Shown: piece by piece, positions 2,393 to 20,487 of the stretch
Numbering within the stretch: position 1 is the stretch's first letter
Layout of the letters: the number at the start of each line of letters is the position of its first letter
DNA from: a virus
Length of the DNA stretch: 64,000 nt
Virus record (IMG/VR): IMGVR_UViG_3300043823_000114
Coordinates: 1 to 64,000 of that record
Direction: 5' to 3' (one strand)
Translations under genes and position numbers: made by a program
The notes under the pieces: generated by a model
Told to the model about the DNA's origin: nothing
Databases searched by the model: none
What the model saw: only the letters and a program-made list of their open reading frames with translations

Positions 2393-2993
2393 TATTTGTC
2401 CACACTCGCTCATGTAGATAAAATAATGCAATTTTAGTAAATATTTCAACTCCACCAATAGCAGCCGCAAGATCAACTCTACCAGTAATAATCCAACTTA
2501 GCACAAATGTATCTATAGTTCCCAGTGTACGCCAACTAATTGCTTTTAATATACTTCGTCTATGTGTGTCTGTTTTGTGATACGCCGCAACAATATTGTC
2601 TATGATATCTGTGTTTTGTGACCAATCAGTAATAGCATAACTAAAAAATTTAGGATTTTCAAATATCTTATTTGTATCTTCAAAGCGACCTTGCTCTATT
2701 GTATTCATCCAAATTATAATATCAGCATCAAACCATTGTTGATATTCGTTTGTAGGACACACGAAGTCACATACTACAAAATCTTCCGTAGAATTGTCCG
2801 ACATTTGTTTCATTCGTTTAAGCTGACGCAATCTACCTTCTGCACTAAAATCCCAATCACCGTGCTCTGCTCGAACTGCATCAGCATTTAGCCATCTAAC
2901 AGTATGTGCAAGCATTAGTCTCTTAACTAGCTCTTGGCTAAATGTTGTCTTGCCAGATCCAGGCAATCCCATCACTAAAATTTTCTTCGTCAT
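2379..2993 (-). CDS. APS-kinase-like P-loop domain fused to DUF2061 membrane domain
   Basis: The protein has two parts. Residues 1-140 form a P-loop kinase of the adenylylsulfate-kinase type, with Walker A GLPGSGKTT at residues 9-17 and a following WLNADAVR stretch resembling the APS kinase LDGD-x-R region. Residues about 144-204 match the DUF2061 membrane family (RRSILKAISWRTLG, two hydrophobic segments, ending in LHERVW). This fusion has been seen in bacteria and phages. It could make PAPS for sulfation of a glycan, or phosphorylate another small substrate; the substrate is not visible in the sequence. I chose the ATG at 2993 over a TTG at 2999 because it forms an ATGA overlap with the stop of the carbamoyltransferase tail upstream, which suggests translational coupling. 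It is probably the last gene of the glycan operon and overlaps the convergent gene by 14 bases. Confidence 0.8.
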   Translation of the reverse strand: MTKKILVMGLPGSGKTTFSQELVKRLMLAHTVRWLNADAVRAEHGDWDFSAEGRLRQLKRMKQMSDNSTEDFVVCDFVCPTNEYQQWFDADIIIWMNTIEQGRFEDTNKIFENPKFFSYAITDWSQNTDIIDNIVAAYHKTDTHRRSILKAISWRTLGTIDTFVLSWIITGRVDLAAAIGGVEIFTKIALFYLHERVWTNIKLR

Positions 2994-4477
2994 GAGCAAA
3001 CCTTTACATTATATAACTGTTCAAATCTATCTGCATCTTTGCGGTCATTGACCATTGGCTCACCACGAATGTTTAAACTAGTGTTTAATAACATGGGGCA
3101 ATCAGTCATCACAAACCATTTCTCTAAGAGTTCTCGGATTCCTGATCCGTCTTGGGGGACTGTTTGTACCCTACTAGTATTATCGTAATGCGCAATAGCA
3201 GGAAATAAATCAGGACGCCGGCAAGTAGCCACTGACTGCATATAAGGGCTAGTGGCAAAGCCCCAAGGCATATCAAAATACTCTTAGGCATGTTCTTCAA
3301 GAATGATCGGCGCGAAAGGCCTAAATTTTTGTCTGCGTTTGATTTCATTTACTCGATCCTTTATATCTGTACCACGGGGGTCTGCTAATAAACTTCTATT
3401 GCCTAATGCTCTTGGTCCGAATTCCGCTCTGCCACTAGCCACACCAACAATGCGATCAGACAAAAGAGCATCCAGGGCATCGTTAACAGGGTAAGCACCA
3501 GGTATATTGTGGCCCAGAAAAGCAGTTGTCCAATTAATACGCTGACCGTAAGCAAGGGCGGCAGCCCCCATACTGCAACCAGCATCGCCAGGATTAGGCA
3601 TAATCCAAATGTTGTCAAAATATGCTCCTATATGTCTATTTGCACTACAGTTAAGCGCAACACCGCCCATGTAGACTAAGTTATTGCTCCAACCTAGTTT
3701 CTTTGCACGATATATTACATTCAGTACCAATGTCTCTACGATGCTTTGTGCACTATGAGCCATTTCTTCTACGCCAGCTCCTTTAAAGAAATTTTCAGTA
3801 AAGCCTAGGTGTAGGTTTTGTTTTAGTCTAATCTCGTATTCGTCGTCAATCACGGCATTTTGTACAAGGTCATTGTATACATCAGTGCCATAAGCAGCCA
3901 TGCCCATTGTAATGTATTCTTCTTCATTGGGCTTTAGTCCACACCTCTGTGTCATAGCACTATAAAACAATCCAATGCTATGCGGATACTTTTGTCCCCA
4001 TAGCTTTTTGTATTTGGCTTTGCCACCAACATACTCTGCGCCCCAGATACTGATAGTATCAAACTCACCAATGGCATCAATAACAACTACCGTGGCACGA
4101 TCAAATGGGCTTGTTTGAAACCCTGCGGCTGCATGACTTAGGTGATGACTATAACATTTTGTGGTTCGCACATTTGTCATAATACAAGTGTTCTTTAACT
4201 GCTCGTTTAGTGCACGGTTTAAAGTTATCTTATCCCACTCAACGCCTTGACCCGAGTATAATTGTCTCAGTTGTTTCTTCCAGGGAGTTTCGTAGTAAGC
4301 AATAGTATCTATTACACCATAGTCATATAAGTCTGCGATTAACTCGGGACTTATGTTTGCATCATTCTTGATCTTGCTATAGCGTTCGCTATGACCGGCG
4401 AATAAGATATCACCGTGTCTATTGATTACTGTTGCGGCGGCATCATGAAAGCCAGCCGAGATTCCTAATATGTTCAT
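2990..4477 (-). pseudogene. NodU/CmcH-type carbamoyltransferase interrupted by an in-frame TAA
   Basis: The frame from 4477 to 2990 is a single carbamoyltransferase of about 495 codons broken only by a TAA at 3286-3284. Residues 1-397 carry the N-terminal Kae1/YrdC-like domain: GISAGFHDAAA, CYSHHLSHAAAGF with catalytic-type histidines, GGVALNCSANR and PNPGDAGCSMGAA. The C-terminal domain begins with FGPRALGNRSLLADPR, reaches RPFAPIILEEHA, meets the stop, and continues in the same frame with EYFD, ARVQTVPQ, LLNTSLNIRGEP. The family transfers carbamoyl from carbamoyl phosphate to hydroxyls of sugars or nucleosides. No base is inserted or deleted. A downstream ATG at 3271 with an upstream GAG could restart the C-terminal 93 residues, so a split two-chain enzyme or readthrough remains possible. 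A recent nonsense mutation or sequence error is equally plausible. The start overlaps the upstream SGNH gene by 35 bases. Confidence 0.85.
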
Positions 4478-5105
4478 ACAATTTTGCGGTCACCTTTCTA
4501 TGACCATCTTCTAAGAAATGCTCTCTAGGGCCACGCTTACATCCATTAGTCCATTCAGCCATCCCTTCTGATGGCCATCCTAGAAAGTTAGATGCGTCAA
4601 TCATTTTTGGTAACTTAGCATCATCATTATAAAATGTTTTATGATAATATTCATTAGATACCACTGACATCATAATATATTTGATGTTTCTTTGTTTAAG
4701 AAAGTCTTGCAACAGTATAACATCATATAAAAACTTTGTATATAGATATTTTGGATCATGATATTGATTGGTATAATTCAATAGTTCCAATCTCCAATCT
4801 TGACCATCTCGCCTAAACAAGTCCCCGCCATATCCAGGCCAAATGTCAAACACTCCATTGGCATCGGCGAATTCCATACGACCCGGACTCGTCCACCCAA
4901 TAATAACTAAATCTAAAGGTTCACCGCTGACTACATAGTCAATTACTTTTCTAATCATCTGAGTGTTACCACCGCTAGGCTGACCCAAATTGACGATATT
5001 GGCTTTTAGTCCTTTGGCGAGATGGTATGGGTACGCATGATCTCTATTATCAAGTTCTTCCCCGTAAGTGAAACTATCACCAACAGCTAAAATATTTTTA
5101 ATCAT
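4443..5105 (-). CDS. SGNH/GDSL hydrolase-like protein
   Basis: A 220-residue protein with an SGNH block I at the N-terminus (VGDSFTYG, nucleophile Ser11), a GQPSGGNTQ segment in the place of block II/III, and a C-terminal EDGH (residues 199-202) that can supply the acid and histidine of the catalytic dyad. SGNH enzymes remove or transfer acyl groups, often acetyl groups on sugars. Beside a carbamoyltransferase and glycosyltransferases, glycan acylation or deacylation is the likely role, but the substrate is not shown. There is no signal peptide or membrane segment. It starts in an ATGA overlap with the stop of the 33-residue small protein upstream and its 3' end overlaps the carbamoyltransferase start. 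A second SGNH gene, with little obvious identity beyond block I, lies at 5178-5993. Confidence 0.8.
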   Translation of the reverse strand: MIKNILAVGDSFTYGEELDNRDHAYPYHLAKGLKANIVNLGQPSGGNTQMIRKVIDYVVSGEPLDLVIIGWTSPGRMEFADANGVFDIWPGYGGDLFRRDGQDWRLELLNYTNQYHDPKYLYTKFLYDVILLQDFLKQRNIKYIMMSVVSNEYYHKTFYNDDAKLPKMIDASNFLGWPSEGMAEWTNGCKRGPREHFLEDGHRKVTAKLYEHIRNLGWLS

Positions 5106-5203
5106 TTGTAGATAAATGGATCTCGTTTGCGTAATTCTTTTAGTTTTTTACGGTAGCGAATTTCTAATACGATTCGATTATACAGATTTTTTAACCAGTT
5201 CAT
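5102..5203 (-). CDS. Small basic 33-residue phage protein
   Basis: A short frame of 33 codons runs from ATG at 5203 to TGA at 5104-5102. The product begins MNWLKNLYNR and ends RKKLKELRKRDPFIYK, so it has a short hydrophobic/aromatic head and a strongly basic helical tail. I recall small phage proteins with a similar basic tail ending in RDPFIY, which is the main reason for calling it; the function is unknown. The frame fills the otherwise empty 72-bp gap between two SGNH genes, overlaps the end of the upstream gene by 26 bases, and its TGA overlaps the next ATG (ATGA). This spacing matches the rest of the operon and supports real translation. Confidence 0.65.
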   Translation of the reverse strand: MNWLKNLYNRIVLEIRYRKKLKELRKRDPFIYK

Positions 5204-5993
5204 TGAATTTATCTTTCATTAATTTGGCAGCATCAACATGTGCCTCTTCTAATGGGTGAGTAGTACCCACTGGGTATTTATTCTCAATGGCCCACTGATA
5301 AAACCCTCTCGGTCTTTCGATCTGATTGAACCCCACACCGGGTGGGAACATATATGTATTAGACCAATCAATCTGGGATCTCAGTGCCCACATGTCTATG
5401 CCTTGGAATCTAGTTTCTTGAAATTTTTCATTATCCGGATGAATGTGATTCTCTGCAAATGTAAAAAGATATGGGATATTTTTTATTTTTAAATATTGTT
5501 GCAAAAAAACTACCTCTTTAATAGTAGAGTATGTATCGTATATGTCACTGTCGCCTACGTGTTTATAAAACATTTTACTAAAATCACCTAATCCAGTACT
5601 TTTACTAAAGTTAAAATGATTGATATGATTTTGTAGGACACCAGAATCACCATGTACAATCTGTGTTATTTCGTTCATATCATCGTAATTGTCCCATGGA
5701 TTTATACTATACCAATTAGATTTGCTAATTTCATAGTTAAATCTAAACTCGTATCTACAGGCAAATGTCCATTGAACAATAACAAACATATCTCGGTTAA
5801 AGCGGTTTTGACATTCATTTATCACTAATCTAGAGATTGCATTATTTGCACTTCCACTTTTTGCCGCACACGAATATTCAAACCCAGCATCTTTGGCTAG
5901 TAATGCCGGATAAGTGCTCCGACTGGGTCCATTAACTTGATCGGCCAGTTCTGCACCATATATGAAACTATCACCGCCCGCTACTATAATCAT
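5178..5993 (-). CDS. SGNH/GDSL hydrolase-like protein
   Basis: A 271-residue protein with block I near its N-terminus (AGGDSFIYG, Ser9 as nucleophile), a SGSANNAISR segment resembling the Gly/Asn blocks, and a C-terminal HPLEEAH (residues 246-252) that can provide the catalytic histidine. This is the second member of a pair of SGNH proteins in the operon. A hydrolase or acyltransferase acting on a glycan is likely from context; the substrate is unknown. Its start overlaps the end of the upstream 363-residue gene by 23 bases, and its end overlaps the small basic gene. Confidence 0.75.
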   Translation of the reverse strand: MIIVAGGDSFIYGAELADQVNGPSRSTYPALLAKDAGFEYSCAAKSGSANNAISRLVINECQNRFNRDMFVIVQWTFACRYEFRFNYEISKSNWYSINPWDNYDDMNEITQIVHGDSGVLQNHINHFNFSKSTGLGDFSKMFYKHVGDSDIYDTYSTIKEVVFLQQYLKIKNIPYLFTFAENHIHPDNEKFQETRFQGIDMWALRSQIDWSNTYMFPPGVGFNQIERPRGFYQWAIENKYPVGTTHPLEEAHVDAAKLMKDKFNELVKKSV

Positions 5994-7062: not shown

Positions 7063-7261
7063 ATTTTAAAATAAAATACATTAGTTGTGATTCTTCTTCT
7101 TCAGTGACATCCAAGCAAAGCGTGACATCCGTATTGAAATAACTGCTAAGCCCCATTATATCTTCATGAACCCACCAGCGCACATTTTCAGTGCCTAAAT
7201 TTTCTTTGCACCATTCTTTGATTTCTGACTTGTTGGTTTGTTTGATTCTATATTTCTTCAA
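7052..7261 (-). CDS. Small hypothetical protein, 69 aa
   Basis: A 69-residue soluble protein with a basic N-terminus (MKKYRIKQTNK) and an acidic C-terminal half. No known domain is recognised. It overlaps the upstream radical SAM gene by 14 bases and the downstream 363-residue gene by 11, the spacing seen throughout the operon, which is the main support for its being translated. Two cysteines and several tryptophans are present but no metal-binding pattern. Confidence 0.65.
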   Translation of the reverse strand: MKKYRIKQTNKSEIKEWCKENLGTENVRWWVHEDIMGLSSYFNTDVTLCLDVTEEEESQLMYFILKYGE

Positions 7262-8552
7262 TTGAGTCCCACCATTCTAATACTTGGGGTCTCGCACTCA
7301 ATATTTCACGCATAGTGATTGGTTGTGTGCGAATACTTTCTAATTTTAGCACACGAGCTTTGCCTTTTGCAATAGCTTTGGGGTATTCATTGGGCCATTG
7401 TTCTTGAAAGGTGGTTCTAGATTTTAGCTCGACCAAGATATCCTTTAACGGGCACTCACCAGTTATGTTATGTGTTGTTTCATCTATCCAGGGTTCTAAA
7501 AGTTCTCTGGGTAGGGCTAAAGGTGACATAACTATGTCCGGGCTAAAACTAAAAACTACTTTCGCTAATATATTTACATCTAACTCTCGTGACAGTCGCA
7601 AAATGTTAAGGGTTTCGAACATACCTGGCAATGTGAGTGTGAAGTCAATTCGCATCTGGCGTCTGTTAGTTGCGATCTCAACTCCTCTACGGAAGTTCTC
7701 AAGCCACTGATTGTAGTCAAGGCCTGTTCTAATATACTCGCCAATCGCTCCTGTTCCGTCAAGGCTGGCACAGATCTGCCAATCACGCACTTTCGAAAGA
7801 ATGTCTTTGTAAAGATCAGTGCCACGATAACTAACACGGGAGAGGTTAGTATTATATCTAGCATAAACATTTGGTCCGTCCCCTAAATCAACTATTCGTT
7901 TCATATACCGCCAATGCTGTTCATACATCAACGGTTCACCGCCAACCCAGTAGACTTCTTCCACTCTATGTTCTTCTACTGCTTGTGCAAACTCTGCTTC
8001 TACTTGACTTAGTTGAAACTCCTCTATTTGTTTTTTGATTTCAGGTTTCATCCAATTATTCTTTGGGTCATGCCAGTTGATCATATCGTGCTGTCTTTGC
8101 TCACTTTCCCAACTACTAGACAACATATCGCCGCACATACGGCATTTAAAGTTACAAAGATTACTAAATCTATAATCCCACGATACGGGCTTCATTGTTG
8201 TATAACCAGTATCGTCAGTACTTTCCATTACTTCTGAATACTTATGCTGAAATAACTGATTGAAATAGTCTCTGTAAACAGAGGTATTCAAGAGTTTATC
8301 ATTACATACTTCGCACTCCGGTAATGTTTCGCCTGCAATCATGCGTTTTCTAACAGAGCGCATATGCTCCCCGTTCCAATGTTCATCTAAAGTGATAGGT
8401 ATATACTTACCAGAACCAGCGCTTGTGTCGATATATTGTTGAAAGTTTTGTGCAGGCTCTCTACTGGCACAGCACATTCTGCGTTCTGTTTGCGGACTCA
8501 AATATGTATGAGTCCAAGGTGCCATGCAAAGTGTATCTGGTTTAACGACCAT
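7248..8552 (-). CDS. Radical SAM protein with N-terminal SPASM/twitch-like cysteine cluster
   Basis: A 434-residue enzyme. The radical SAM [4Fe-4S] motif is NLCNFKCRMCG with Cys133, Cys137 and Cys140. Unusually, a second cysteine set lies before it: LCMAPW (Cys9), MCC (Cys27-28) and CEVC (Cys80, Cys83). This resembles the SPASM/twitch motif that normally follows the core, so the auxiliary cluster domain looks moved to the N-terminus. A WVGGEPLM stretch corresponds to the GGEP SAM-binding motif. Such enzymes generate a 5'-deoxyadenosyl radical and act on peptides, sugars or small molecules; the substrate here is unknown. It is one of five tandem relatives in 7248-13986. Confidence 0.9.
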   Translation of the reverse strand: MVVKPDTLCMAPWTHTYLSPQTERRMCCASREPAQNFQQYIDTSAGSGKYIPITLDEHWNGEHMRSVRKRMIAGETLPECEVCNDKLLNTSVYRDYFNQLFQHKYSEVMESTDDTGYTTMKPVSWDYRFSNLCNFKCRMCGDMLSSSWESEQRQHDMINWHDPKNNWMKPEIKKQIEEFQLSQVEAEFAQAVEEHRVEEVYWVGGEPLMYEQHWRYMKRIVDLGDGPNVYARYNTNLSRVSYRGTDLYKDILSKVRDWQICASLDGTGAIGEYIRTGLDYNQWLENFRRGVEIATNRRQMRIDFTLTLPGMFETLNILRLSRELDVNILAKVVFSFSPDIVMSPLALPRELLEPWIDETTHNITGECPLKDILVELKSRTTFQEQWPNEYPKAIAKGKARVLKLESIRTQPITMREILSARPQVLEWWDSIEEI

Positions 8553-8757
8553 ATTTGTTATTGATTATTTTTAATGTTTCTTTTGCGTATTGACCAGACG
8601 GATGATCTTTGTGCATCCGTGCGATATCGTCTAACGCTGTCCACATAAGTTCGTGTTCATTTTGAATTTCGAAAACTCTATTACGGAGGTTGGCACTGTC
8701 CACAATACTCAAACAAGCACCGATAAACTTAACAAGTAACCGTACCCATAATTCCAT
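8542..8757 (-). CDS. Small hypothetical protein, 71 aa
   Basis: A 71-residue, mostly helical protein with a hydrophobic N-terminus (LWVRLLVKFIGACLSIV) that could be a single membrane anchor or an amphipathic helix, followed by a charged segment. It starts in a TAATG overlap with the stop of the radical SAM gene upstream and runs 11 bases into the next radical SAM gene. No family is recognised. It is wedged between two radical SAM genes, so a partner or membrane-tethering role is possible but unproven. Confidence 0.65.
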   Translation of the reverse strand: MELWVRLLVKFIGACLSIVDSANLRNRVFEIQNEHELMWTALDDIARMHKDHPSGQYAKETLKIINNKYGR

Positions 8758-9965
8758 TAATATCCCATAGCCTGTGCTATTTCTGGATGTGTGAGCATAA
8801 AGTTTTGTTTACGGTACTCATCTGTTTGTTTCATCTGTCTGCAAAATTCTTTACCATCACTACCAGCTCCGTTTTCAATAAACTTGATTACATTGACAAT
8901 TTCTTGTTGATGTTTGGTTGACTTCCAGAATGTTGTTTTGAGTTTGTTTAATACTAATTCCCGTGCTTCGGGTGTCATATGTTGAATACTCATACGCTCT
9001 GGACTATGAAGCATATTAAAATAGATGCTACCGAAATGTTTAGTATCTGCCCAGTCAAGTAGTTCATCAAGATAATAAACATTTTGAATGTTGATTGTAA
9101 AGCAAAGTTGGGTAGTGATATTGGGATACATTATTTGTAATACATGTGTGGCATCAATGATTGCATTTGCTTCTGTCCAATTGGCCCCAAATCGTTCGTA
9201 CTCAAAACGATCTCCCACATTGTCAATGCTATAAGCAATATCTACTCTGCCAAGTTTGCTCAGTAACGGAACTAATCTCGATGGGGGTTGCGTGCCATTT
9301 GTGTTGTAATGTATATCTATATTTTTGCCATAGCCCTCTTGCACTGCAAACTCTAGCAAATCCCAGTGTTCTTCAATAAGCCAAGGTTCGCCACCAGTGA
9401 ATTCAAAATACTTTATCTGTGGCAGCAATGCTTTTAGATTCTCCCAGAAGTCTGGACTTTCTTCTGGCCACTTACCTTGTTTAAGCCAAGTGTATGCGAT
9501 ATGCTGTTTCTTATTCGCGCCTTTTGGTAAGTAATCCATTTCTTCGCTTGCCCATTTACTGCTTGACCACGAACCGCATATCCTACACTTAAGGTTGCAA
9601 ATGTTTCCAAGTTTGAGGTCAACGAACCAGAGTTGATCAGGGTTATCATTATTCCAATCGACCTGTGTATATAATTCTTTGAGCCTAACACGGGAATGAA
9701 TTCGTTTACTATCACGCCCCGCGGCTTCTTCTTCCCAACAACGATTGCAAGTTGACGGTTGTTCACCCCTACGAAACTGTTGTCGTAAAGATTGCATATA
9801 ATTGCTACGGTAGATGACTTCGAGTGTGGTGCTACGTAACGAGTACGGGTTGTTATTCTCATCTTTAATTTCCTCTTGTGCAAGACAACATGGTCTTGCT
9901 GTGGCCATTGGACTAGCCTCAATGCTAATCCATGGCAGCATACAAATAGTATTAGGTAGATCCAT
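8757..9965 (-). CDS. Radical SAM protein with N-terminal SPASM/twitch-like cysteine cluster
   Basis: A 402-residue enzyme. The radical SAM motif NICNLKCRICG places Cys123, Cys127 and Cys130. A preceding cluster motif has ICMLPW (Cys8), PCC (Cys26-27) and CNRC (Cys73, Cys76), the N-terminal SPASM/twitch-like arrangement shared with its neighbours. The FTGGEPWLIEEHW stretch is the GGEP motif. Similarity to the 7248 and 9952 proteins (SSSKWASEE after the third cysteine, YNTN strand) shows duplication and divergence in place. The reaction and substrate are unknown. It overlaps the upstream gene by 14 bases. Confidence 0.9.
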   Translation of the reverse strand: MDLPNTICMLPWISIEASPMATARPCCLAQEEIKDENNNPYSLRSTTLEVIYRSNYMQSLRQQFRRGEQPSTCNRCWEEEAAGRDSKRIHSRVRLKELYTQVDWNNDNPDQLWFVDLKLGNICNLKCRICGSWSSSKWASEEMDYLPKGANKKQHIAYTWLKQGKWPEESPDFWENLKALLPQIKYFEFTGGEPWLIEEHWDLLEFAVQEGYGKNIDIHYNTNGTQPPSRLVPLLSKLGRVDIAYSIDNVGDRFEYERFGANWTEANAIIDATHVLQIMYPNITTQLCFTINIQNVYYLDELLDWADTKHFGSIYFNMLHSPERMSIQHMTPEARELVLNKLKTTFWKSTKHQQEIVNVIKFIENGAGSDGKEFCRQMKQTDEYRKQNFMLTHPEIAQAMGY

Positions 9966-11268
9966 ATTTCTTCAAATCCTCTAGTTCTGGGAACACTGCA
10001 AAAAAATCTTCTTTGCGAACATCGTCAATAAGATCGTTGTACTTAAAGAACTCTGGAATCAAGTTAGTGCTTTCTTGTTGCATCATAAAGTTAATGACAC
10101 CTTCATAACCACTTGTTGCTCGTTGAAGACTATCTTGTGGGCGTAACCAGTCAAGATGTGCTAGAATCTTTTCCTTTGCTTGTTCTTTCAAGTGCTGTGG
10201 GAGTACATCAACACGGTAACGATGTGGATGTTGTAAAATATTAATGTTCCAATCCATTGGGCGAATCAGTCCAAGATCACTCCATTCACGGTGAAAGTCT
10301 GTAACATGCAATACATTCATCATACTCACAGTACTACTAACATAGAAGTCTACATTAGGACATACTTCAATCATACGCTCACGGTTTTCGACTGTTTGCT
10401 TCCAGTCTTGACCTTTACGAATGTACTCACCGCGAGCATAGCTACCATCAAGACTTGCACCAATACTAACACAGTCAAATAGCTTCCACATTTCAAACAC
10501 TTCACGGTTCTTGAATTTCATTTCACTGAAGTTAGTGTTATAGATTAGACGGACATGGAACATTTCCCGTTTAACAAGTTCATCAAGCACTTTCCAATGC
10601 TCTTTCATTATAAGTGGCTCACCACCTGCCCAGTAGATTTGTTCCAAGTGTGGTATATGTTCTTGCATTTGCTCCCACATATCATCTTCGTTACGACCCG
10701 CATACATAATGACCGGGTGTTTAGGGTCCCACCCAGCACGCTTCTCGTCAGCATGCCAATTGGATGAAAATATACTACCGCAGGTTCTACAAGCAAAGTT
10801 GCAAAGATTGCTAAAGCGTATGTCGTAATATCGAAGTTTAAAATCATCAAACGAACCATCTGGCTTCGTTTCATCAACCAAGCCAATATGATGTCCAAAG
10901 TTCTTATTGGAACTCTCACGCATACTAAAAAGTTTCGATTGTTCTTGCTCGTAGCACTTGGTGCATTCTTTACAACTTGTCTCAGAAAGCATATTTCGGC
11001 GCATGTTCTTGAGCGGATCGTCATTCCAAACTTCCTTCATTGATTGTTGATTTAAGTTACCGATTGGATGCTGTGGTTCACTTAAACAGCAAGGGTATGC
11101 ACGACCATCAGGGAAGGCATGCATGTGAATCCATGGGATGATACAGAATACATCACTCTTGATCAATCTATCAAGTTGATCTGTGCGTAGTTCTTCTTCT
11201 TTGATATAGATGGGTTTGCGTCCACCGTAGTTGTAGTCTTTGTAGTAATCGTTTAAATCGTTTGCCAT
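9952..11268 (-). CDS. Radical SAM protein with N-terminal SPASM/twitch-like cysteine cluster
   Basis: A 438-residue enzyme. The core motif NLCNFACRTCG holds Cys156, Cys160 and Cys163. The N-terminal cluster is the clearest of the set: FCIIPWIHMHAFPDG, YPCC (Cys60-61), a GNLNQQSMKEVW stretch and CKECTKC (Cys99, Cys102, Cys105), which reads like a textbook SPASM motif placed before the core. WAGGEPLIMKEHW is the GGEP segment. The substrate is unknown. About 36 residues precede the first cysteine region. Its start shares one base with the stop of the upstream radical SAM gene, consistent with coupled translation. Confidence 0.9.
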   Translation of the reverse strand: MANDLNDYYKDYNYGGRKPIYIKEEELRTDQLDRLIKSDVFCIIPWIHMHAFPDGRAYPCCLSEPQHPIGNLNQQSMKEVWNDDPLKNMRRNMLSETSCKECTKCYEQEQSKLFSMRESSNKNFGHHIGLVDETKPDGSFDDFKLRYYDIRFSNLCNFACRTCGSIFSSNWHADEKRAGWDPKHPVIMYAGRNEDDMWEQMQEHIPHLEQIYWAGGEPLIMKEHWKVLDELVKREMFHVRLIYNTNFSEMKFKNREVFEMWKLFDCVSIGASLDGSYARGEYIRKGQDWKQTVENRERMIEVCPNVDFYVSSTVSMMNVLHVTDFHREWSDLGLIRPMDWNINILQHPHRYRVDVLPQHLKEQAKEKILAHLDWLRPQDSLQRATSGYEGVINFMMQQESTNLIPEFFKYNDLIDDVRKEDFFAVFPELEDLKKYGST

Positions 11269-12632
11269 TATAGTGTATTATACCAGTCTGCTAATTCGGG
11301 AAATGTTTCTGCAAAGTTCTTGTCTCTGCGTTGGTCATACTGTGAGTAAAACTTTTTGAAATCTTGTTGTAGCACTGATTGATCAGCCGCGCCGGCATGT
11401 GGAGTTTTCACTATATCTAGATAATCGATTAATCGTTTTAGCTGATTTAGTTCGTACTCGTGGAGTGTTTCTGCCCCTAAATGTTCGTCATGCCATTGTT
11501 GCAATCTGTCTTTGAATATTGTGCGAATCTCGTCGGGTAAGACAAGACTACTTTGAAAACTAGGGAATCTAAGAATATTTAGTGAAAAGTTGATAGCATC
11601 TTTGCCATACTCAAGTTTCCAGTTATGGACCATTTCAAGAAAGCTATCAAGACTACTAAAACACAATGCATTAATAGTACACATCACATGAAGTCCACGA
11701 AACTTACCACTATCCAATAACCGTTCTACATTGTTTGCCCAATCATCGAATACAAGACCATCACGGATATATTCTGATTGTAAGCTCATAGACTCATTGC
11801 TCGTATACAAATCAACCTCAACCCCATCAATGGAATCTAGTAAACGATCTATATCTACATCAGGACCCAAGTTACTATTGATGGCTAGCCTTGTCTTCGA
11901 CTTACCTTTGTTGTTCTTAAACCACTCGATAAGTTTCCACGTCTCGCCTGACATAAGCGGCTCTCCACCCGTAATACGGAGTTCTTGAAGTGTCTTATGT
12001 AGATCTGATTCCCACCACTTGTGGAATGCGGTAACATATGGATTTGATTCACCAAATTTGTATAGTTGCGATGCTCTGTGATTATGAGTGAAATGGTTAC
12101 GGCCATCACTGACAAGATCAGTATAAGGCCCATTACGATCAATATCACGGACCCAGGTGGAGCTAAAAGCAGGGTTGCAATAAGAGCAAGCCAGCTGACA
12201 AGTGCGGTCGAAGGCGATCTCAAGAGTTTGTAAATTAAAGTCAGTACTTGCTGGAGTGCGGAAAGCATAGTTTAAATCCTCGTCGTTGTATATCACTGTT
12301 TTGTATACTCTGTCACTGATATTATCTCTGCCGATGTCTTCTATCTTCCAGCAATATTCACACCCACTAGGCCTTTCGCCCTTTTGCATCTGTTCACGCT
12401 CCATCTTTTTCTTGGTAGTGTTATGTAATGCTGATGGGTTTTTAGCAAGATCATCGACATCAATTGAATGTGGTAATGGGTGATGGCAACTTGTAGTCTG
12501 TCCACTACCTAACCAGATAGTGGCGTTGTACCACTTTGCTCCACAGAATGATTCGCTCTTAATGTCAATCACTCTGCGTTTATATTCTAAATCTGTTTCA
12601 TTATTAATTCTGGGCATAATATCTGCATTCAT
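11268..12632 (-). CDS. Radical SAM protein, second subfamily of the array
   Basis: A 454-residue enzyme with the core motif RTCQLACSYCN (Cys145, Cys149, Cys152) and RITGGEPLMSGETW. The N-terminal cluster differs from the first three: FCGAKW (Cys30), SCHHPLPHSID (Cys49) and CEYCWKIED (Cys91, Cys94). The 12604 protein has the same layout, including PSALHNT and RPS-x-C-x-YCW, so these two form a subfamily. The histidines beside the second cysteine may be extra ligands, but that is inference. The ATG at 12632 overlaps the upstream gene by 29 bases; an internal ATG at 12617 is an alternative start. Confidence 0.88.
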   Translation of the reverse strand: MNADIMPRINNETDLEYKRRVIDIKSESFCGAKWYNATIWLGSGQTTSCHHPLPHSIDVDDLAKNPSALHNTTKKKMEREQMQKGERPSGCEYCWKIEDIGRDNISDRVYKTVIYNDEDLNYAFRTPASTDFNLQTLEIAFDRTCQLACSYCNPAFSSTWVRDIDRNGPYTDLVSDGRNHFTHNHRASQLYKFGESNPYVTAFHKWWESDLHKTLQELRITGGEPLMSGETWKLIEWFKNNKGKSKTRLAINSNLGPDVDIDRLLDSIDGVEVDLYTSNESMSLQSEYIRDGLVFDDWANNVERLLDSGKFRGLHVMCTINALCFSSLDSFLEMVHNWKLEYGKDAINFSLNILRFPSFQSSLVLPDEIRTIFKDRLQQWHDEHLGAETLHEYELNQLKRLIDYLDIVKTPHAGAADQSVLQQDFKKFYSQYDQRRDKNFAETFPELADWYNTL

Positions 12633-13986
12633 CCCAGAACTCTTTCATCATGGGGAATGTCTTTAAAAAATCTGTTTGTCGGCGTTTATCGTGTTCGTTG
12701 AAGAACCGATAAAAGTCTGCTCTTTGCATTGTAACATATTCAGGATCAAGATTGCTACCTTCTCTCATCCAATCTATGTTTCTGCGCATACGCTGAACTT
12801 CATAGTCTTTAAATCCTTGGAATGGCTTGTCTGGTGTTTCCAAGTTTGCTTCCATCCAATCCGCCACACGCTCTAAACGATCTGCATAAACAGGAGGAAG
12901 AATTTGCAAGCTCTGCCAAGAGGGACTTCTTAACAATGGAGTATCAAACCAAACACGCTGATATGTTTTGCTATACAGTTTACGCAAACTCAGAATCCAG
13001 TCTAATAGTCGCTCAATGCCCAATACACTGAGATTATTCATTGTAACAATAAATGTTAAACTATTACGGTTACGAATATGATCTAAGAAGCGATGAACAT
13101 TTTCATGCATTCGAAAATAGTGTAAGCCATGACGAATATATTCTGCGTGTTCGCTAATACCGCTGTCCAAACTTACATACTGCATGAAGTGTTCAATTTG
13201 TGTATTACACAACTGCTTTACATAATCGTGATACTTGTCATAGAGTTTAGGTTCGACACAGAAGTTGCTTGTTACATTCAAATGAAGATCGGGTTTAGGA
13301 AATGCTAATACATAGTCAAACACTTTGTATGTGTTCTTATCCATCAGTGGCTCACCACCCGTCATTCTAAAATGCTTTAGTTTAGGATACAGTTCCGGGA
13401 ACCATTCCCAAAATGCGTCAACGTAAGGATTATCTTCACTAGCGGGGATGGGTCGTCGGTTACCCGTGAAATGAGCAGGGTCATTATGAGGATTACTTGT
13501 GGGATACGCTCCGTACCGAGCAACTTCGTCAGCCCAACTGCTACTAAACTGAGGGCTACAATAACTACACTTAAGGTTACAAGCGTGATTAAAATTGACC
13601 TCCACATAACTTGGTATTGGGTTGTCTGATTGTCCATTTTTGATCTCCTCAAAGTGTTCTGCCGCCCAGGGTTCGCCTGAACGATAATGTCTGTCGCTTA
13701 GATTACCTAAGTCTTCTTGAGTCCAGCAATAGCTACACTCTGATGGGCGCTCGTTCTTGAGCATAATAACTCGTTGCTCTTTTTTATGAGGGGTATTGTG
13801 TAGTGCGCTTGGGTCATCTTTTAAAAGACTTGCATCAATCTGATGCAGTGGCGGATGATAGCAACTATTAGTCAGCCCTGTAGGTAGATGCAAACTTAAT
13901 TGTTGCCACTTAGCCAAGCAAAGGCTAGGACCAAGATTGTCCTTCATAAACTCTGCACTTGCCATAAAATCACTCTTATTCGACAT
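12604..13986 (-). CDS. Radical SAM protein, second subfamily of the array
   Basis: A 460-residue enzyme. The core motif NHACNLKCSYCS places Cys136, Cys140 and Cys143, followed by FRMTGGEPLMDKNTY. The N-terminal cluster has LCLAKW (Cys23), SCYHPPLHQID (Cys42) and CSYCWTQED (Cys84, Cys87), a close match to the 11268 protein. The shared PSALHNT and KK-x-x-R segments point to a common recent ancestor. Substrate and product are unknown; the glycosyltransferase-like gene immediately upstream suggests action on a sugar or a glycan-linked peptide, but this is context only. It overlaps the upstream gene by 11 bases. Confidence 0.88.
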   Translation of the reverse strand: MSNKSDFMASAEFMKDNLGPSLCLAKWQQLSLHLPTGLTNSCYHPPLHQIDASLLKDDPSALHNTPHKKEQRVIMLKNERPSECSYCWTQEDLGNLSDRHYRSGEPWAAEHFEEIKNGQSDNPIPSYVEVNFNHACNLKCSYCSPQFSSSWADEVARYGAYPTSNPHNDPAHFTGNRRPIPASEDNPYVDAFWEWFPELYPKLKHFRMTGGEPLMDKNTYKVFDYVLAFPKPDLHLNVTSNFCVEPKLYDKYHDYVKQLCNTQIEHFMQYVSLDSGISEHAEYIRHGLHYFRMHENVHRFLDHIRNRNSLTFIVTMNNLSVLGIERLLDWILSLRKLYSKTYQRVWFDTPLLRSPSWQSLQILPPVYADRLERVADWMEANLETPDKPFQGFKDYEVQRMRRNIDWMREGSNLDPEYVTMQRADFYRFFNEHDKRRQTDFLKTFPMMKEFWDECRYYAQN

Positions 13987-14932
13987 AGGTTATTTTTTTA
14001 TTAAACTGTTTATCCATGATTAAATCATGGTTATGATCCAATATTTTTTGCATTTGATCATACATACTCCCCAACTCATCCAATGACTTGTGTGAGATAG
14101 TCGTTATCAAATCTAGAATTTTTTCGTACCGTTGTTTCTCATCAAATACATCATAACTTTCATCCCAGAAATCATGGAATGTCTTGAATCCCATTTGTCT
14201 AAGGTATGTCAGAAAATGCTTTGAGCCCATCACAATAAAGGGTTTCTTCATTAACATTGGTCTTGTTGTTTTTTCTGTTGGAAAGAATGTACGACCAGTG
14301 GTAAAAGTTTCAGCAACGATATCAATCAAGAACTCTGTATAGAACTGTTTAAACTGATTTGCAAGTCGTTGCGTTGTTAATCCAAGAGTAAATTCTTCAA
14401 GATCAGTTAGTAGCATTGGTAGTTGCGGCATAACATTTAAAAATTTAGTCACCGAAGATGGCGAAAATTCAAAAAGTCGTTGCATCTCGAATAACGCTCT
14501 GCTATCTTCATCGTGCGGGTTCGATCTGAAATGTATTAAACTATTTTCTCTACACTCAGTCTGCAACTCACCGACAAGACCTATTCTGTGCCAAATCGCA
14601 CGGTTATATAATGCACCAAAAATGTATTGTTTATCCCAATGATGATATTGAGAGAAGTCTCCCTCAGCTTCAAAAAAGTAAGGGACAATGTTACATTTAT
14701 TATTTCTTATTTGATATTTTTCATTGTATTCGATTGGGTTTTTTGTGTAGATGATAACTTGTTCGAATTTAAAGTTGTCCAATAAATCATATAGCCCCAC
14801 AGCATTTAGACAACATCCTTCATTGTTAGTTGTTAAAATGATCGACGCACCTTGATTATCAACTAAAAACTTTATAAGTTCGTTTCTATTCCATATAAAA
14901 TTATCTGCGGGTATGATTACAAAGTTATTCAT
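13976..14932 (-). CDS. Glycosyltransferase-like protein (DESYD family)
   Basis: A 318-residue protein related to the product of 1271-2392. The C-terminal block contains TEKTTRPMLMKKPFIVMG, LRQMGFKTF and DESYDVFDE, in the same order and spacing as in that paralog. This block resembles the nucleotide-sugar-binding half of GT10-like enzymes. The N-terminal half (VIIPADNFIWNRNEL, IILTTNNEG) looks like a Rossmann-type beta-alpha domain. Sugar transfer is the likely role, at moderate confidence. It overlaps the neighbours by 8 and 11 bases. Confidence 0.6.
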   Translation of the reverse strand: MNNFVIIPADNFIWNRNELIKFLVDNQGASIILTTNNEGCCLNAVGLYDLLDNFKFEQVIIYTKNPIEYNEKYQIRNNKCNIVPYFFEAEGDFSQYHHWDKQYIFGALYNRAIWHRIGLVGELQTECRENSLIHFRSNPHDEDSRALFEMQRLFEFSPSSVTKFLNVMPQLPMLLTDLEEFTLGLTTQRLANQFKQFYTEFLIDIVAETFTTGRTFFPTEKTTRPMLMKKPFIVMGSKHFLTYLRQMGFKTFHDFWDESYDVFDEKQRYEKILDLITTISHKSLDELGSMYDQMQKILDHNHDLIMDKQFNKKITYVE

Positions 14933-15293
14933 CTTGACTGATATGATCGATTTTTATTTCTTTTATATTTGATTGACCCAGCTTATCGGCAATAATGTTT
15001 TTTAATGACACTCGTTTATTATTCCAGTTTCTTATCTCAATTGCCCGTCTACCTATTTCAGTCAAGTCCAACAAGTGTTCTTTTCCAGATTTCAATTCAG
15101 ATTCAAGATTCCAAATATTTTTATGTATTTCATATAGATTATCAATCTCAGATTGCACAATGGATAAATCATAACTTGATAATTGTTCTAGATAAAAATT
15201 GTATTCATCTGTTATTGTATGAAATTTTTCATTTTTTAGTTTAGAAATGGTAAATCTATCAACTAACTCTATGACAGGGAAGAATGGTTTCAT
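14925..15293 (-). CDS. Conserved small helical protein, 122 aa
   Basis: A 122-residue, highly charged, helical protein. The C-terminal part contains EIGRRAIEIRNWNNKRVSLKN, a pattern I associate with small uncharacterised proteins found beside glycosyltransferases in bacterial polysaccharide clusters. I cannot name the family with certainty. The N-terminus (VIELVDRFTISKLK) also fits that group. It starts in an ATGA overlap with the stop of the upstream radical SAM gene, so the two are probably co-translated. A structural or regulatory partner of glycan enzymes is a reasonable guess only. Confidence 0.65.
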   Translation of the reverse strand: MKPFFPVIELVDRFTISKLKNEKFHTITDEYNFYLEQLSSYDLSIVQSEIDNLYEIHKNIWNLESELKSGKEHLLDLTEIGRRAIEIRNWNNKRVSLKNIIADKLGQSNIKEIKIDHISQDE

Positions 15294-16324
15294 ATATAAA
15301 GTGCCTCTAGATACTCTGTGTTGTCCATAATATTTTGTATTTTAATGTTACTTAAATTTGCTCTGCATGGTTGACAGAAATGGGTATTGATCGAGTCATA
15401 CAGTTTTTTATGATGATCGCTGAGCCAAACATCTGATCTAAAATCGCCCTCATCCCATCTACCCAACTTGAATCGTTCATTACCCTTATTGTCACAGCAG
15501 GCATACATATAGCCATCTGCGCAAAAAACGGGAAACTGAAACATTTGGTGACATCTTGAATAAGTTCTTTCAAGATACTTTGATTGATTTATTTTTAACT
15601 TTACATTATACTTTTCAGACAAAGTATTCATAGTATCAATCATACTGGGAGTTATCATATATGCAACTGAATTCAGTATAGCTGGTCTTATATACAACAT
15701 CCGCACACCAACTTCTTGGCTTTTTTGAAATATATTTTCTAATGCGTCTTTTGTCGAATTCAAATCACTCAACAGAACCTTAAAATCAACATTGGCCCCA
15801 ATCTTGACTAGATCAGAGGCGTTTTTCATAACTCTATTGAAAATACTTTTTTTCGATAGAGTCTTTCTTATTCTTTCATATAGCACTTCTTCACCAGCAT
15901 CGATGTCTATCCCTATCCATGCCATTTTTTGAATCTTTTCTACTGATACTGAGTTTATCAACTTATCTAACTTATAACCATTAGTCGTAATACTAGACAA
16001 AAACCCTAGATCAATGCAATGTTCTACTACCTTTTCATAGCCCTTGAGTAGTGTCGGTTCTCCCCCGCCAGGGAAAGTAATAGAATGTAACGATCCATAA
16101 CTATTGGGACTGTGTGCTCTCCAAGATGCTAGTTTATTCAGTAGTTCAATGTATTCACGGTAATCTTTTTGTACAGGTGCATTTTTTCTATGCTCTGCAC
16201 TATTGCAATAAAAACAATCTTGGTTGCATATATTGGTGAGATCAATATCTACTTGCATTGGGAGAATAGACATAGTATCTCTATTCTTCATCCAGTGTAC
16301 TATTTCTGCCGACGGATAACTCAT
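15290..16324 (-). CDS. Radical SAM/SPASM protein of conventional layout
   Basis: A 344-residue radical SAM enzyme with NICNQDCFYCN at the N-terminus (Cys33, Cys37, Cys40), then FPGGGEPTLL and a TTNGYKL strand. The C-terminal third carries the usual SPASM-like cysteines: SRCHQ, FCADGYMYACCDN and FCQPCRANLSNI. Unlike the five tandem neighbours, the auxiliary cluster is after the core, so it has a separate origin. Family members modify peptides, sugars or small molecules. It starts in an ATGA overlap with the glycosyltransferase-like gene upstream and ends in one with the 122-residue gene downstream. Confidence 0.9.
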   Translation of the reverse strand: MSYPSAEIVHWMKNRDTMSILPMQVDIDLTNICNQDCFYCNSAEHRKNAPVQKDYREYIELLNKLASWRAHSPNSYGSLHSITFPGGGEPTLLKGYEKVVEHCIDLGFLSSITTNGYKLDKLINSVSVEKIQKMAWIGIDIDAGEEVLYERIRKTLSKKSIFNRVMKNASDLVKIGANVDFKVLLSDLNSTKDALENIFQKSQEVGVRMLYIRPAILNSVAYMITPSMIDTMNTLSEKYNVKLKINQSKYLERTYSRCHQMFQFPVFCADGYMYACCDNKGNERFKLGRWDEGDFRSDVWLSDHHKKLYDSINTHFCQPCRANLSNIKIQNIMDNTEYLEALYI

Positions 16325-17235
16325 TCTCTTACCATGATCCCTTTATTTTTAAACTGACTTTGATAGTGATGTTTAAACCAACTACTATATTCTGCATTCA
16401 TATCAACTATGGGCAAGCCCAATTGTGTTTTGAGTATATTGCATAATTTAGGTAATTCAGTAGTCAAGTCTGTATCTTTGTACCTGTCCCAGAGTTCTGC
16501 GAGCTTGTTAAAGTCTTGGACTTCTGTATAGTCCCACTCAGGTTCAGAGAGTGTAAGGTGGGTACCGAGGCGTGCACCGTATATTGCCCAATCACCATGT
16601 TCTGCATCACTCCCAACGCTTTGCCATATGCAGAGATTGTCATAATTGCGGTCATAATTTCGAGATGTCGCTCGGGATTTAAAATCACTTGCCGTGGGCC
16701 TTGCTCCCCTATCAAGACACATTTTAACACCTTCACGAAACCCAGCACGCCAAGCAGTGTACGGTGATCCGTTGGGGTAAGTCGTGGAGTAGCAGTCCAC
16801 CATAGCCCAGTACTTCTCATGAAAGCAAAATTCCACAAGCGTTTCATTCGTCCCGTCGGTTGATTCATGAGTCCGCATATTACGAACAAAATCCTTAGTC
16901 CAGCTTGAAATTCCTCCATTACCATATTGTAGTCCATTTATAATGTTACGTGCTCGCCATCTAAAAACACAATCACGAGAATTCTCATCCAAACGCAACT
17001 GCTGATTAAAGAAGCCTGGATCTGGGAGGTTATCTCCGTCGATAAGAATAAATCTGTCCGTATCACTTGTCTCAGCGGCCGCTTTGTGCGCCGCGTCAGA
17101 GCCCAATACACCATCAACTCTTTTGGCCCAAGGAACAATATTTTGAATTGCCACCCAGAATTCTTCTTTTTTTGGTTCGTCATACGTTAAAAATATTACA
17201 TCTAAATCTGCTACATCAACTATTTCTGTGCTCAT
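16321..17235 (-). CDS. GT-A-like glycosyltransferase with DGDN motif
   Basis: A 304-residue soluble protein. The N-terminal half has the logic of a GT-A fold: a first strand LDVIFLTYDEP, then VDGVLGSDAAHKAAA, and ILIDGDN at residues 64-69, where the D-x-D triad (Asp66-Gly-Asp68) would bind Mn and the nucleotide sugar. The C-terminal half is rich in aromatic and charged residues and has HGDWAIYGARLG. Donor and acceptor are unknown. It overlaps the 119-residue gene upstream by 20 bases and the radical SAM/SPASM gene downstream by an ATGA. Confidence 0.7.
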   Translation of the reverse strand: MSTEIVDVADLDVIFLTYDEPKKEEFWVAIQNIVPWAKRVDGVLGSDAAHKAAAETSDTDRFILIDGDNLPDPGFFNQQLRLDENSRDCVFRWRARNIINGLQYGNGGISSWTKDFVRNMRTHESTDGTNETLVEFCFHEKYWAMVDCYSTTYPNGSPYTAWRAGFREGVKMCLDRGARPTASDFKSRATSRNYDRNYDNLCIWQSVGSDAEHGDWAIYGARLGTHLTLSEPEWDYTEVQDFNKLAELWDRYKDTDLTTELPKLCNILKTQLGLPIVDMNAEYSSWFKHHYQSQFKNKGIMVRE

Positions 17236-17575
17236 AATATTCTACTTCTGGATAATCTTCTGTTTCTAATAAGACTCCGGCGTGCCCTTTCACTGTCCTA
17301 AATCCTTGATCACTTCTCTTTAAACGACGGTAATGTAATGTTGTGTCGTTTGGTATCCGTTCCAACTTACCATCAGTGACTCTATACTTTGTGTAGTTGT
17401 CATATTCATACCGTGTTACAACAATATACTTTGTGTTATCGGGATGATCTTGCATTGTACAAGCATAGATATCACCTTGCTCATTATAGTGCATGCGGTA
17501 TTCTAACTTAGTTGGTGGCCGTTTGTCAAGTAACTGCTCAAACTCTTGCCAAAACTCTTTGCTCATAGTATTCAA
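17216..17575 (-). CDS. Hypothetical protein, 119 aa
   Basis: A 119-residue, soluble, strongly charged and tyrosine-rich protein with predicted beta character (YIVVTRYEYDNYTKYRV). No family is recognised. It overlaps the upstream glycosyltransferase-like gene by 38 bases and the downstream one by 20. Such long overlaps with recognisable genes on both sides support translation, although an internal ATG four codons in would shorten the first overlap. No signal peptide, membrane segment or metal motif is visible. Confidence 0.65.
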   Translation of the reverse strand: MNTMSKEFWQEFEQLLDKRPPTKLEYRMHYNEQGDIYACTMQDHPDNTKYIVVTRYEYDNYTKYRVTDGKLERIPNDTTLHYRRLKRSDQGFRTVKGHAGVLLETEDYPEVEYYEHRNS

Positions 17576-18392
17576 TCAATTCATCTGTTGCATAGTTCTT
17601 ATCGTGATAGTGTACTGGACTGTATTGATTTAAGTTGTTGATGCGAATAACATCACCATCTTGCTCATTCATCACTGTATCAATCCAACTTACTTGATCA
17701 CTCCACCCATTAAACCCCGATTTCATATGGACAAAGTTGATAAAGTCCATACTTGGCATAGTGACTGTTTCTTCACCCAACATCAATGCAGATAGTGCGT
17801 ATAACACATCTGTGCTAGGGCTATCTTCTATACAATTCTTCAAACCAGTTTTTACATACTCCCATTTATTACTAATATATCTTGCGGCATCGAAAAATTC
17901 TTTTGCTGGCCTGCTATATCTAAAGTACATCAATCCGTTATATACATTAGGCAAGTTGTTAGCATCAAAAAACTCACGGTACTTTTTAATCGTACGGTTT
18001 ATACCCATATAGTTTTTTGCATCGTAACTTAGACAAACATCCCGTAGTCTAAATGCAGTCCACCAGTGATCGATACTGCGAGTAAATAACAAGTCTGCTT
18101 CAAGTTTAATAGTCTCTTTAAACGGTGTAAAATACAGTGCATAGGCTTCTGCATCAAACGCAGATTGCCACTTCGACTCTGGATCATATCTGATATGATT
18201 GATATGATCAAATACCGCTTTATATTTGTCGGGAATATCAATTGGGCACACATTAGTCACCACAGCATACTTGGCATCAGTTTGTGTTGCTTTAACATTC
18301 AATGCTTGTAAGTAAGCTAAGCGAAGGTAATCTACTTCGCCCAAGTTTATAGCAAAAGTTAAAAATCCCTGTCCTGTTTTATCCTGTGACAT
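17538..18392 (-). CDS. Glycosyltransferase-like protein (GT-A, GT8-like)
   Basis: A 284-residue protein. The first strand GFLTFAINLGEVDYLRLAYLQAL, the YAVVTN strand and KLEADLLFTRSIDHWW, with an acidic E-A-D at residues 98-100, match the GT8-like plan: N-terminal nucleotide-binding fold followed by a metal-binding acidic motif. The downstream VYNGLMYFRYS resembles the acceptor-side strand of the family. The metal motif is EAD rather than DxD, so activity is not certain. A relative with an intact DVD motif is encoded just upstream (18379-19197). It overlaps that gene by 14 bases. Confidence 0.65.
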   Translation of the reverse strand: MSQDKTGQGFLTFAINLGEVDYLRLAYLQALNVKATQTDAKYAVVTNVCPIDIPDKYKAVFDHINHIRYDPESKWQSAFDAEAYALYFTPFKETIKLEADLLFTRSIDHWWTAFRLRDVCLSYDAKNYMGINRTIKKYREFFDANNLPNVYNGLMYFRYSRPAKEFFDAARYISNKWEYVKTGLKNCIEDSPSTDVLYALSALMLGEETVTMPSMDFINFVHMKSGFNGWSDQVSWIDTVMNEQDGDVIRINNLNQYSPVHYHDKNYATDELIEYYEQRVLARV

Positions 18393-19197
18393 CAGTTACA
18401 AAATCCTTAAATTGTGTTGATTGTAAGTAGGCCTTATCCATAACGTGAATGTTCTGCTGTGGCATCAATATGGGTTTTTTATTTGTAAAGTAAGCACGGA
18501 TGTTTTTGCTGTCTACTATTAATCTATCAACCTTATCTGTAATTGTAAACATCTTCCATGGAATATTATGTCCAGGATCTATATGATAACCGTTTAATAT
18601 AATATTGGCTATAGCAAATGCGTAATCGTTTCTGAAATTCCGTTCTCGGATGTTGTATAGTTTGCAATAGTAATCATAGTTGTCTTGTATTCTTTTGACA
18701 AGATCAAACAACATCTTTGTCTTATCTGATTTGTTGAATACAATAACAGTGGCCCAAATGAATGGCAAGCTGTAAGGACCCATCGATGAATATAAATCAC
18801 CATTGGATGAACTACTATAATAATGAAACGCATAATCTTTATTCAAGTCTATTAGTTTCAATAAACTATCATCTAACACAAGATAATCTACATCAAGTAA
18901 CACAGTGCTATCATATGGGCTAAGTTCATAGGCCAAGTAACGCCCAAAGTTCTTCCATTCAACTTGTTGATAAGAGACATCTAGTTTGATATTACCCGAT
19001 GCAACATCAACTCGGATCACTTGATCATATTCAAACTGTGGTTCAGCATCGTGATCTGTAATCAAAGTGATGGGTAGTTTCAAGTTTCGTTCAATAAGTT
19101 TGCTAGTATTATCTGCTATAGCAACATAATCTACACTTGTATTGAAAGCAAAAACTACAACACCCTTAGATTTTTCTGATTTTCTTGAGTTCTGCAT
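18379..19197 (-). CDS. Glycosyltransferase-like protein (GT-A, GT8-like, DVD motif)
   Basis: A 272-residue protein. GVVVFAFNTSVDYVAIA forms the first strand, PITLITDHD the second, and TVLLDVDYLVLDD contains the metal-binding D-x-D at residues 102-104. This is the order expected for GT8-type enzymes. FRNDYAFAIANIILNG is the segment that in this family contacts the acceptor. It is probably a cytoplasmic sugar transferase; donor and acceptor are unknown. It overlaps the upstream 105-residue gene by 32 bases and the downstream GT by 14. Confidence 0.7.
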   Translation of the reverse strand: MQNSRKSEKSKGVVVFAFNTSVDYVAIADNTSKLIERNLKLPITLITDHDAEPQFEYDQVIRVDVASGNIKLDVSYQQVEWKNFGRYLAYELSPYDSTVLLDVDYLVLDDSLLKLIDLNKDYAFHYYSSSSNGDLYSSMGPYSLPFIWATVIVFNKSDKTKMLFDLVKRIQDNYDYYCKLYNIRERNFRNDYAFAIANIILNGYHIDPGHNIPWKMFTITDKVDRLIVDSKNIRAYFTNKKPILMPQQNIHVMDKAYLQSTQFKDFVTDVTG

Positions 19198-19483: not shown

Positions 19484-19489
19484 CTATAT

Positions 19490-19518: not shown

Positions 19519-19522
19519 GAAA

Positions 19523-20476: not shown

Positions 20477-20487
20477 TTTCTATATCC

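Follow-up and report, generated by a model that had tools for sequence, protein, structure and literature searches.

What might a phage make with five neighbouring genes for radical S-adenosylmethionine (radical SAM) proteins that carry an auxiliary set of cysteines in front of the catalytic core? This question is raised by a stretch of 64,000 bases, here called the window, which comprises positions 1-64000 of the 90,208-base virus record IMGVR_UViG_3300043823_000114 (G000:C1). Between 7248 and 13986, five intact open reading frames (ORFs), P1 to P5, lie in tandem on the minus strand. A sequence-only reading had taken them for an enzyme chain that, together with glycosyltransferases, SGNH proteins and a carbamoyltransferase, makes an unusual radical-modified glycan or peptide. 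The present analysis adds the homology of their N-terminal domain to the twitch domain of BtrN, a fixed five-gene order, fusions of P3 with P2 and a related cluster in Bacteriovoracaceae, whereas the name of the protein family was already known.

Domain organisation of P1 to P5

All five proteins gave full-length matches (290-411 bits) to NCBIfam NF033640, N_Twi_rSAM (twitch domain-containing radical SAM protein), above its curated cut-off of 170 bits, and a scan of the whole 90,208-base record returned them as the sole matches above that cut-off. The proposed row of five genes with auxiliary cysteines before the CxxxCxxC core is thus borne out. The domain order is indeed reversed, but it is the order of a family that already has a name. 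The radical SAM model PF04055 scored above cut-off for four of the five proteins, P4 reaching 29.1 against 29.5, and the GGEP motif is kept in every P1-P5 ortholog. Prokaryotic viperin (NF038283, cut-off 180 bits) was ruled out, as its model gave 16-24 bits where it matched. Neither an assigned function for NF033640 nor a description of the five-gene phage chain or the P3-P2 fusion was found in the literature searched, most subscription papers lying outside that search; this silence is weak evidence of novelty.

The proteins fall into the two subfamilies predicted earlier: P1-P3 follow the pattern CxxPW...CC...CxxC (PW type), P4 and P5 the pattern CxAKW...CxHP...CxxC (AKW type), and the N-terminal domains of the two types are homologous (hhalign probability 97.4, E 1e-11). 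Since the window copies are only 21-27% identical to P3, P1-P5 are old paralogs. Recent duplication as the origin of the array is out on the same grounds and because each phage group has a bacterial sister of its own (see below).

The N-terminal and core cysteines of P1-P5 (Table 1) are at least 97% conserved across orthologs. Four auxiliary positions are conserved across all five proteins, as in a twitch domain with one cluster, and the twitch pattern CX9-15GX4C plus CX2C fits the array with the exception of P1, which lacks the glycine. The SPASM motif is defined by seven cysteines (PMC6231123). With four auxiliary cysteines only, a SPASM domain with two auxiliary clusters is ruled out, and of the SPASM/twitch-like set proposed originally the twitch part stands. 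The Pfam SPASM model scored above cut-off for P3 only, slightly below it for P1 and P2, and gave no match for P4 and P5.

When the N-terminal domain of the PW type was compared, as a profile, with all sequences of the Protein Data Bank (PDB), only two matches were significant, both to the C-terminal twitch domain of BtrN, the butirosin aminocyclitol dehydrogenase (4m7s, 1.1e-5; 4m7t, 2.3e-5), and a full-length profile matched the same region. All four auxiliary-cluster cysteines are aligned, C169, C187, C232 and C235 of BtrN (4m7s alignment numbering) with C42, C60, C102 and C105 of P3. P4 and P5 gave no direct BtrN match and are linked to it solely through the profile comparison with P1-P3. 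The homologous domain is C-terminal in BtrN and N-terminal in P1-P5, and otherwise the proteins share only general radical SAM similarity. In BtrN, the four cysteines fully ligate a [4Fe-4S] cluster, and for the auxiliary clusters of BtrN and anSME a role in oxidising the radical intermediate has been suggested (PMC6231123). By homology, the N-terminal cysteines of P1-P5 should likewise be able to hold a cluster, which upholds the auxiliary-cluster domain predicted for them.

AlphaFold2 (AF2) models of P3 and P5 are confident, and their barrels align with those of the SPASM/twitch enzymes CteB, SkfB, anSME, SuiB, BlsE and DesII at Z scores of 12-14. BlsE and DesII are sugar-acting radical SAM enzymes. 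In those of the six that possess an auxiliary domain, this domain lies behind the barrel, the reverse of the order in P1-P5. The lack of other folds among the structural matches is uninformative, since the search dealt mainly with the barrel.

Gene order and fusions in viral relatives

Relatives were collected by scanning IMG/VR with P5 and P3 as queries, and loci were deduplicated by identical P5; some loci overlap. Because the loci were gathered with these two queries, partial arrays are under-represented among them. P5 retrieved 298 relatives, of which the top 80 have 68-80% identity, and P3 retrieved 25. The contigs are metagenomic, and dozens of the related phages with the array come from lakes and seas. 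Records are up to 357 kb long; 29 viral-contig records were taken whole and contained 4 to 12 N_Twi matches apiece. Occurrence of the array is thus wide, as judged from the relatives of P5, and an assigned product for it was not found in the literature searched.

Distinct orthologs numbered 81 for P5, 72 for P4, 67 for P2 and 64 for P1, and the CxxxCxxC core, the twitch cysteines and GGEP are present in all 81 P5 sequences. The order P5-P4-P3-P2-P1 on a single strand was found in every distinct locus spanning P5 to P1 (69 of 69): 60 loci are plain, four have P3 fused to P2, and five contain one additional tandem copy. The fusions (L039, L063, L069 and L107) are in frame and about 840 aa long. 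Adjacent fixed genes have negative median gaps, most reading frames overlapping, and the cargo genes between fixed genes vary by phage. Invariant order, overlapping frames and P3-P2 fusions support the notion of an enzyme chain. Mean pairwise identity within the groups is 0.61-0.74, and P1-P5 are under purifying selection as judged from rough ratios (dN/dS about 0.05-0.10, dS often being saturated). At L116-L118, which are marine contigs binned into bacterial metagenome-assembled genomes (MAGs), the array order ends P1-P2.

Substrate of the array: glycan, peptide or DNA

Following large tail-fibre/adhesin genes, the minus strand reads st24, st23, s22, GT21, GT20, s19, GT18, cargo, P5-P1 and a7; past a7 come two SGNH/DUF6071 proteins, a NodU-type carbamoyltransferase and a kinase-DUF2061 fusion (Table 1). 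The suggested association of glycosyltransferases, SGNH proteins and carbamoyltransferase with the array therefore holds. GT18 adjoins P5 upstream in many phages and also occurs near N_Twi genes in Bdellovibrionota. The cargo repertoire of the phages comprises more radical SAMs, DUF6071/SGNH and AMP-binding proteins, DegT aminotransferase, hexapeptide transferase and sulfotransferase.

The bacterial relatives revealed by a scan of GTDB genomes fell into three classes: misbinned phage contigs within MAGs (L115-L119), lone P3-like genes and multi-copy clusters in Bdellovibrionota. Of the 369 Bdellovibrionota genomes examined, 81 contain matches to P4 of 1e-60 or better (counting both AKW members), 38 contain matches to P5 at 1e-100 and 11 contain matches to P1 at 1e-60. 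On the Bacteriovoracaceae MAG contig UBA6144 (L127), close relatives of the whole set of five genes lie inside 12 kb, and we take this contig to be chromosomal because rpmA- and obgE-like genes adjoin the cluster. In a FastTree phylogeny, the phage sequences of every one of the five genes form a monophyletic group, and the smallest phage-bacteria clade of each group includes an L127 gene, with support of 1.0, 0.999, 0.947, 0.611 and 0.991 for P1 to P5; the value for P4 rises to 0.998 at a wider node that comprises the same genes. The gene order in L127 differs from that in phages. That the set is shared despite the different order points to functional linkage beyond the common descent of one segment.

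The bacterial neighbourhoods are partly of the polysaccharide type. In a raw count, made with no matched control, 22 of 101 proteins neighbouring the Bdellovibrionota clusters matched Radical_SAM beside the N_Twi genes, and there were seven matches to families of GT2 type, two to NTP-transferase and one each to DegT and Polysacc_synt_2 (polysaccharide synthesis). Among the 369 genomes, AKW-type N_Twi genes are present in 16 of the 21 with a GT18 homolog versus 66 of the 348 others (Fisher p 8e-8, uncorrected for kinship), and GT18 homologs lie next to N_Twi genes at G107:C183, G093:C34, G105:C167 and G215:C86. The Bdellovibrionota locus L233 contains a Wzm/Wzt-like pair, as read from the sequence. 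In the Bacteroidota locus L131, an N_Twi gene directly adjoins a NodU carbamoyltransferase, and SGNH, PhyH and NAD-epimerase genes are also present. In Bdellovibrionota, a phylum that includes predators, single genomes (G093, G107 and G047) contain as many as 11-12 copies of N_Twi_rSAM.

Could the substrate be a protein instead? The five enzymes might modify side chains or the backbone of a phage structural protein (st24 or st23) in the manner of ribosomally synthesised and post-translationally modified peptides (RiPPs), with the glycosyltransferases then glycosylating the residues. The array has a fixed position beside the virion-like st23 and st24, and its top structural matches include the peptide-acting CteB, SkfB, SuiB and anSME. 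However, known RiPP SPASM/twitch enzymes carry an RRE, and neither RRE nor PqqD was found in 16 records, while the positive control detected PqqD in 3 genomes; no conserved small ORF that could encode a precursor peptide was found in the array across related loci, where most genes overlap; and the bacterial arrays do not stand beside phage structural genes. We consider this explanation unlikely. The small ORFs at 7052-7261 and 8542-8757 were ruled out as precursors, having no homologs in about 100 loci, and a RiPP system was rejected for want of both RRE and precursor. With the peptide weakened by these two negatives and the bacterial context being of the polysaccharide type, the glycan is the better supported half of the original glycan-or-peptide proposal.

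It seems very improbable that the array yields a small molecule or RiPP-like natural product directed against the host or competing phages. Several radical SAM genes together do resemble natural-product clusters, and some loci have AMP-binding cargo, but there is no precursor gene and nothing conserved that is precursor-like, no exporter was seen in the phage cassette, and the glycosyltransferases are constant. Phage carbamoyltransferases and glycosyltransferases are capable of acting on modified bases, and the radical steps could serve hypermodification of the phage DNA together with these enzymes. Yet thymidylate-synthase-family genes number at most one per record and are absent from G000, and the array is present in bacterial chromosomes too, so that we rate DNA as the most remote of the substrates considered. 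Tet/JBP gave no match in the 16 records, with controls likewise silent and the records perhaps being fragments.

We hold it to be slightly on the probable side that P1-P5 form, together with the glycosyltransferases, SGNH proteins and carbamoyltransferase, a pathway for building and decorating a sugar or short glycan of an unusual kind. A surface glycan is suggested because glycosyltransferases, SGNH proteins and NodU-type carbamoyltransferases make up the context in phage, Bdellovibrionota and some Bacteroidota. In the scheme that we infer as to sugar substrate, reaction types, step sequence and acceptor, P1-P5 would be five paralogous, non-redundant enzymes; in each, the radical SAM barrel would cleave SAM, and a twitch domain of the BtrN type, at the N-terminus, would carry a single auxiliary Fe-S cluster. 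Hydrogen abstraction by each enzyme would take place at a different carbon of the sugar and result in oxidation, epimerisation, dehydration or a C-C change, while the twitch cluster would take up or relay the electron, as proposed for BtrN, and P3 and P2 would work on successive intermediates. The putative glycosyltransferases GT21, GT20 and GT18, the SGNH proteins and the carbamoyltransferase would join in assembling the glycan, which would probably be attached to the adjoining virion adhesins or displayed on the infected cell.

Several observations weigh against such a glycan pathway. We know of no member of NF033640 with a tested activity, and twitch domains are found in peptide-acting enzymes (SkfB) as well. 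GT18, GT20 and GT21 had no firm family match in library searches, and no nucleotide-sugar synthesis genes are constant across the phage cassettes. Many Bacteroidota have a lone P3-like gene with no recognisable glycan genes nearby, and a neighbouring virion protein as the acceptor is a guess from gene position. The genes may instead be host-derived and act on a host surface polysaccharide, in immune evasion or superinfection exclusion, and not on the virion. The presence of the same enzyme set in Bdellovibrionota chromosomes and of relatives in polysaccharide-type bacterial loci is consistent with this, but linkage to phage virion-like genes is fixed in about 80 loci. This explanation shares the glycan with the pathway outlined above and differs in the acceptor alone, and confidence in the two overlaps; we regard it as doubtful, if the least so among the alternatives.

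Only tentatively do we extend the glycan pathway to a complete viral multi-step route, in which five non-interchangeable enzymes, one pair sometimes fused, would act in series to make a novel radical-modified sugar for the particle or the host surface and would have been exchanged as a set with Bdellovibrionota. Phage sugar chemistry known so far consists mostly of glycosyltransferases and nucleotide-sugar enzymes. If true, a phage would encode a run of radical steps, likely leading to a new sugar structure, and N_Twi_rSAM, so far only a name, would gain a first function. Order conservation, fusion and BtrN homology make the hypothesis directly testable, and the common set in Bdellovibrionota offers a bacterial system for study.

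Neighbouring genes and other phage clusters

Table 1 Features of the array and its surroundings (window coordinates; aux, N-terminal cysteines; core, first cysteine of CxxxCxxC)
Feature	Position	Strand	Remarks
st24, tail-fibre-like	20488..21693	-	PHROG tail fibre/virion structural matches; 56 loci; candidate acceptor or mere neighbour
st23, virion-like	19523..20476	-	head of gene string; 80 loci; no family match
s22, 105 aa	19166..19483	-	87 loci
GT21, putative glycosyltransferase	18379..19197	-	DxDY, D102/D104 conserved; 96 loci; no library match
GT20, putative GT8-like glycosyltransferase	17538..18392	-	98 loci; weak glycogenin match, E 7e-4
s19, 119 aa	17216..17575	-	85 loci; no family match
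GT18, putative GT-A-like glycosyltransferase	16321..17235	-	invariant DGDN; 100 related loci, 57-74% identity; no Pfam match; class from sequence reading
Accessory radical SAM, usual order	15290..16324	-	PF04055 45 bits; orthologs in 2 loci only
s16, 122-aa cargo	14925..15293	-	2 loci, both those with the 15290 radical SAM ortholog
g15, variable cargo between GT18 and P5	13976..14932	-	25 loci, 25-54% identity
P5, AKW N_Twi_rSAM, 460 aa	12604..13986	-	NF033640 317 bits; transcribed first of five; AF2 pLDDT 93.7; aux C23/C42/C84/C87; core C136
P4, AKW N_Twi_rSAM, 454 aa	11268..12632	-	NF033640 290 bits; frame overlaps P5; aux C30/C49/C91/C94; core C145
P3, PW N_Twi_rSAM, 438 aa	9952..11268	-	NF033640 411 bits; AF2 pLDDT 92.6; aux C42/C60/C61/C102/C105; core C156
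P3 N-terminal twitch domain	10930..11163	-	C42, C60/C61, C102, C105; profile match to BtrN twitch
P2, PW N_Twi_rSAM, 402 aa	8757..9965	-	NF033640 323 bits; aux C8/C26/C27/C73/C76; core C123
P1, PW N_Twi_rSAM, 434 aa	7248..8552	-	NF033640 292 bits; last of five; aux C9/C27/C28/C80/C83; core C133
a7, 363 aa	5971..7062	-	after P1; 68 loci, 37-76% identity; no PDB match
SGNHb, SGNH/DUF6071-like	5178..5993	-	Pfam DUF6071 E 4e-4, below cut-off; position conserved
SGNHa, DUF6071/GDSL-like	4443..5105	-	DUF6071 3.8e-8
NodU-type carbamoyltransferase	2990..4477	-	Carbam_trans_N/C; one in-frame TAA
P-loop kinase (APS kinase/KTI12-like) fused to DUF2061	2379..2999	-	Pfam; position kept in relatives

The accessory radical SAM gene at 15290 had been noted as a conventional neighbour of the array. 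Its order is conventional, with the core first, followed by CX12GX4C plus CX2C as read from the sequence, and its 44 bits make it a non-member of NF033640. With an ortholog in 2 of about 100 related loci, it is occasional cargo outside the core five, and its membership of the chain is not supported. Profiles of a7, st23 and GT21 found nothing in the PDB, and that of GT18 gave unrelated weak matches only. The TAA in the carbamoyltransferase gene is codon 398 (3284-3286), and a nonsense change and an assembly error are indistinguishable here; the frame runs uninterrupted in 14 full-length relatives (491-513 aa) of other phages.

The window phage is T4-like in appearance, as judged from PHROG, sequence reading and the capsid, and its major capsid protein is 65-68% identical to those of the jumbo phages Pseudomonas PA5oct, Vibrio 2.275.O and Sinorhizobium Phosso. 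Radical SAM proteins of Vibrio phages K566 and K567 and of the KVP40 group resemble P1-P5 in N_Twi family membership, but with 21-25% identity, another gene order and hypothetical genes interspersed they are not orthologs. K566 (L007), an isolated jumbo phage and possible laboratory model, has five N_Twi_rSAM genes (16543-23285 and 32861-33916), annotated merely as radical SAM or hypothetical. Pelagibacter phage Mosig (L256, 2415-8500) carries three MoaA-annotated radical SAM genes together with an ArnB-type aminotransferase, a carbamoyltransferase and an epimerase, but differs from the window phage in having zero NF033640 matches in its record.

Amid the adhesin-like genes of the window, a 2OG-Fe(II) oxygenase with DUF6817 is encoded at 21977-23071, with no relative in the collected loci. 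In L113, a fatty-acid-desaturase-like ORF (3105-3995; about 66.8-67.7 kb of the record) follows the major capsid gene.

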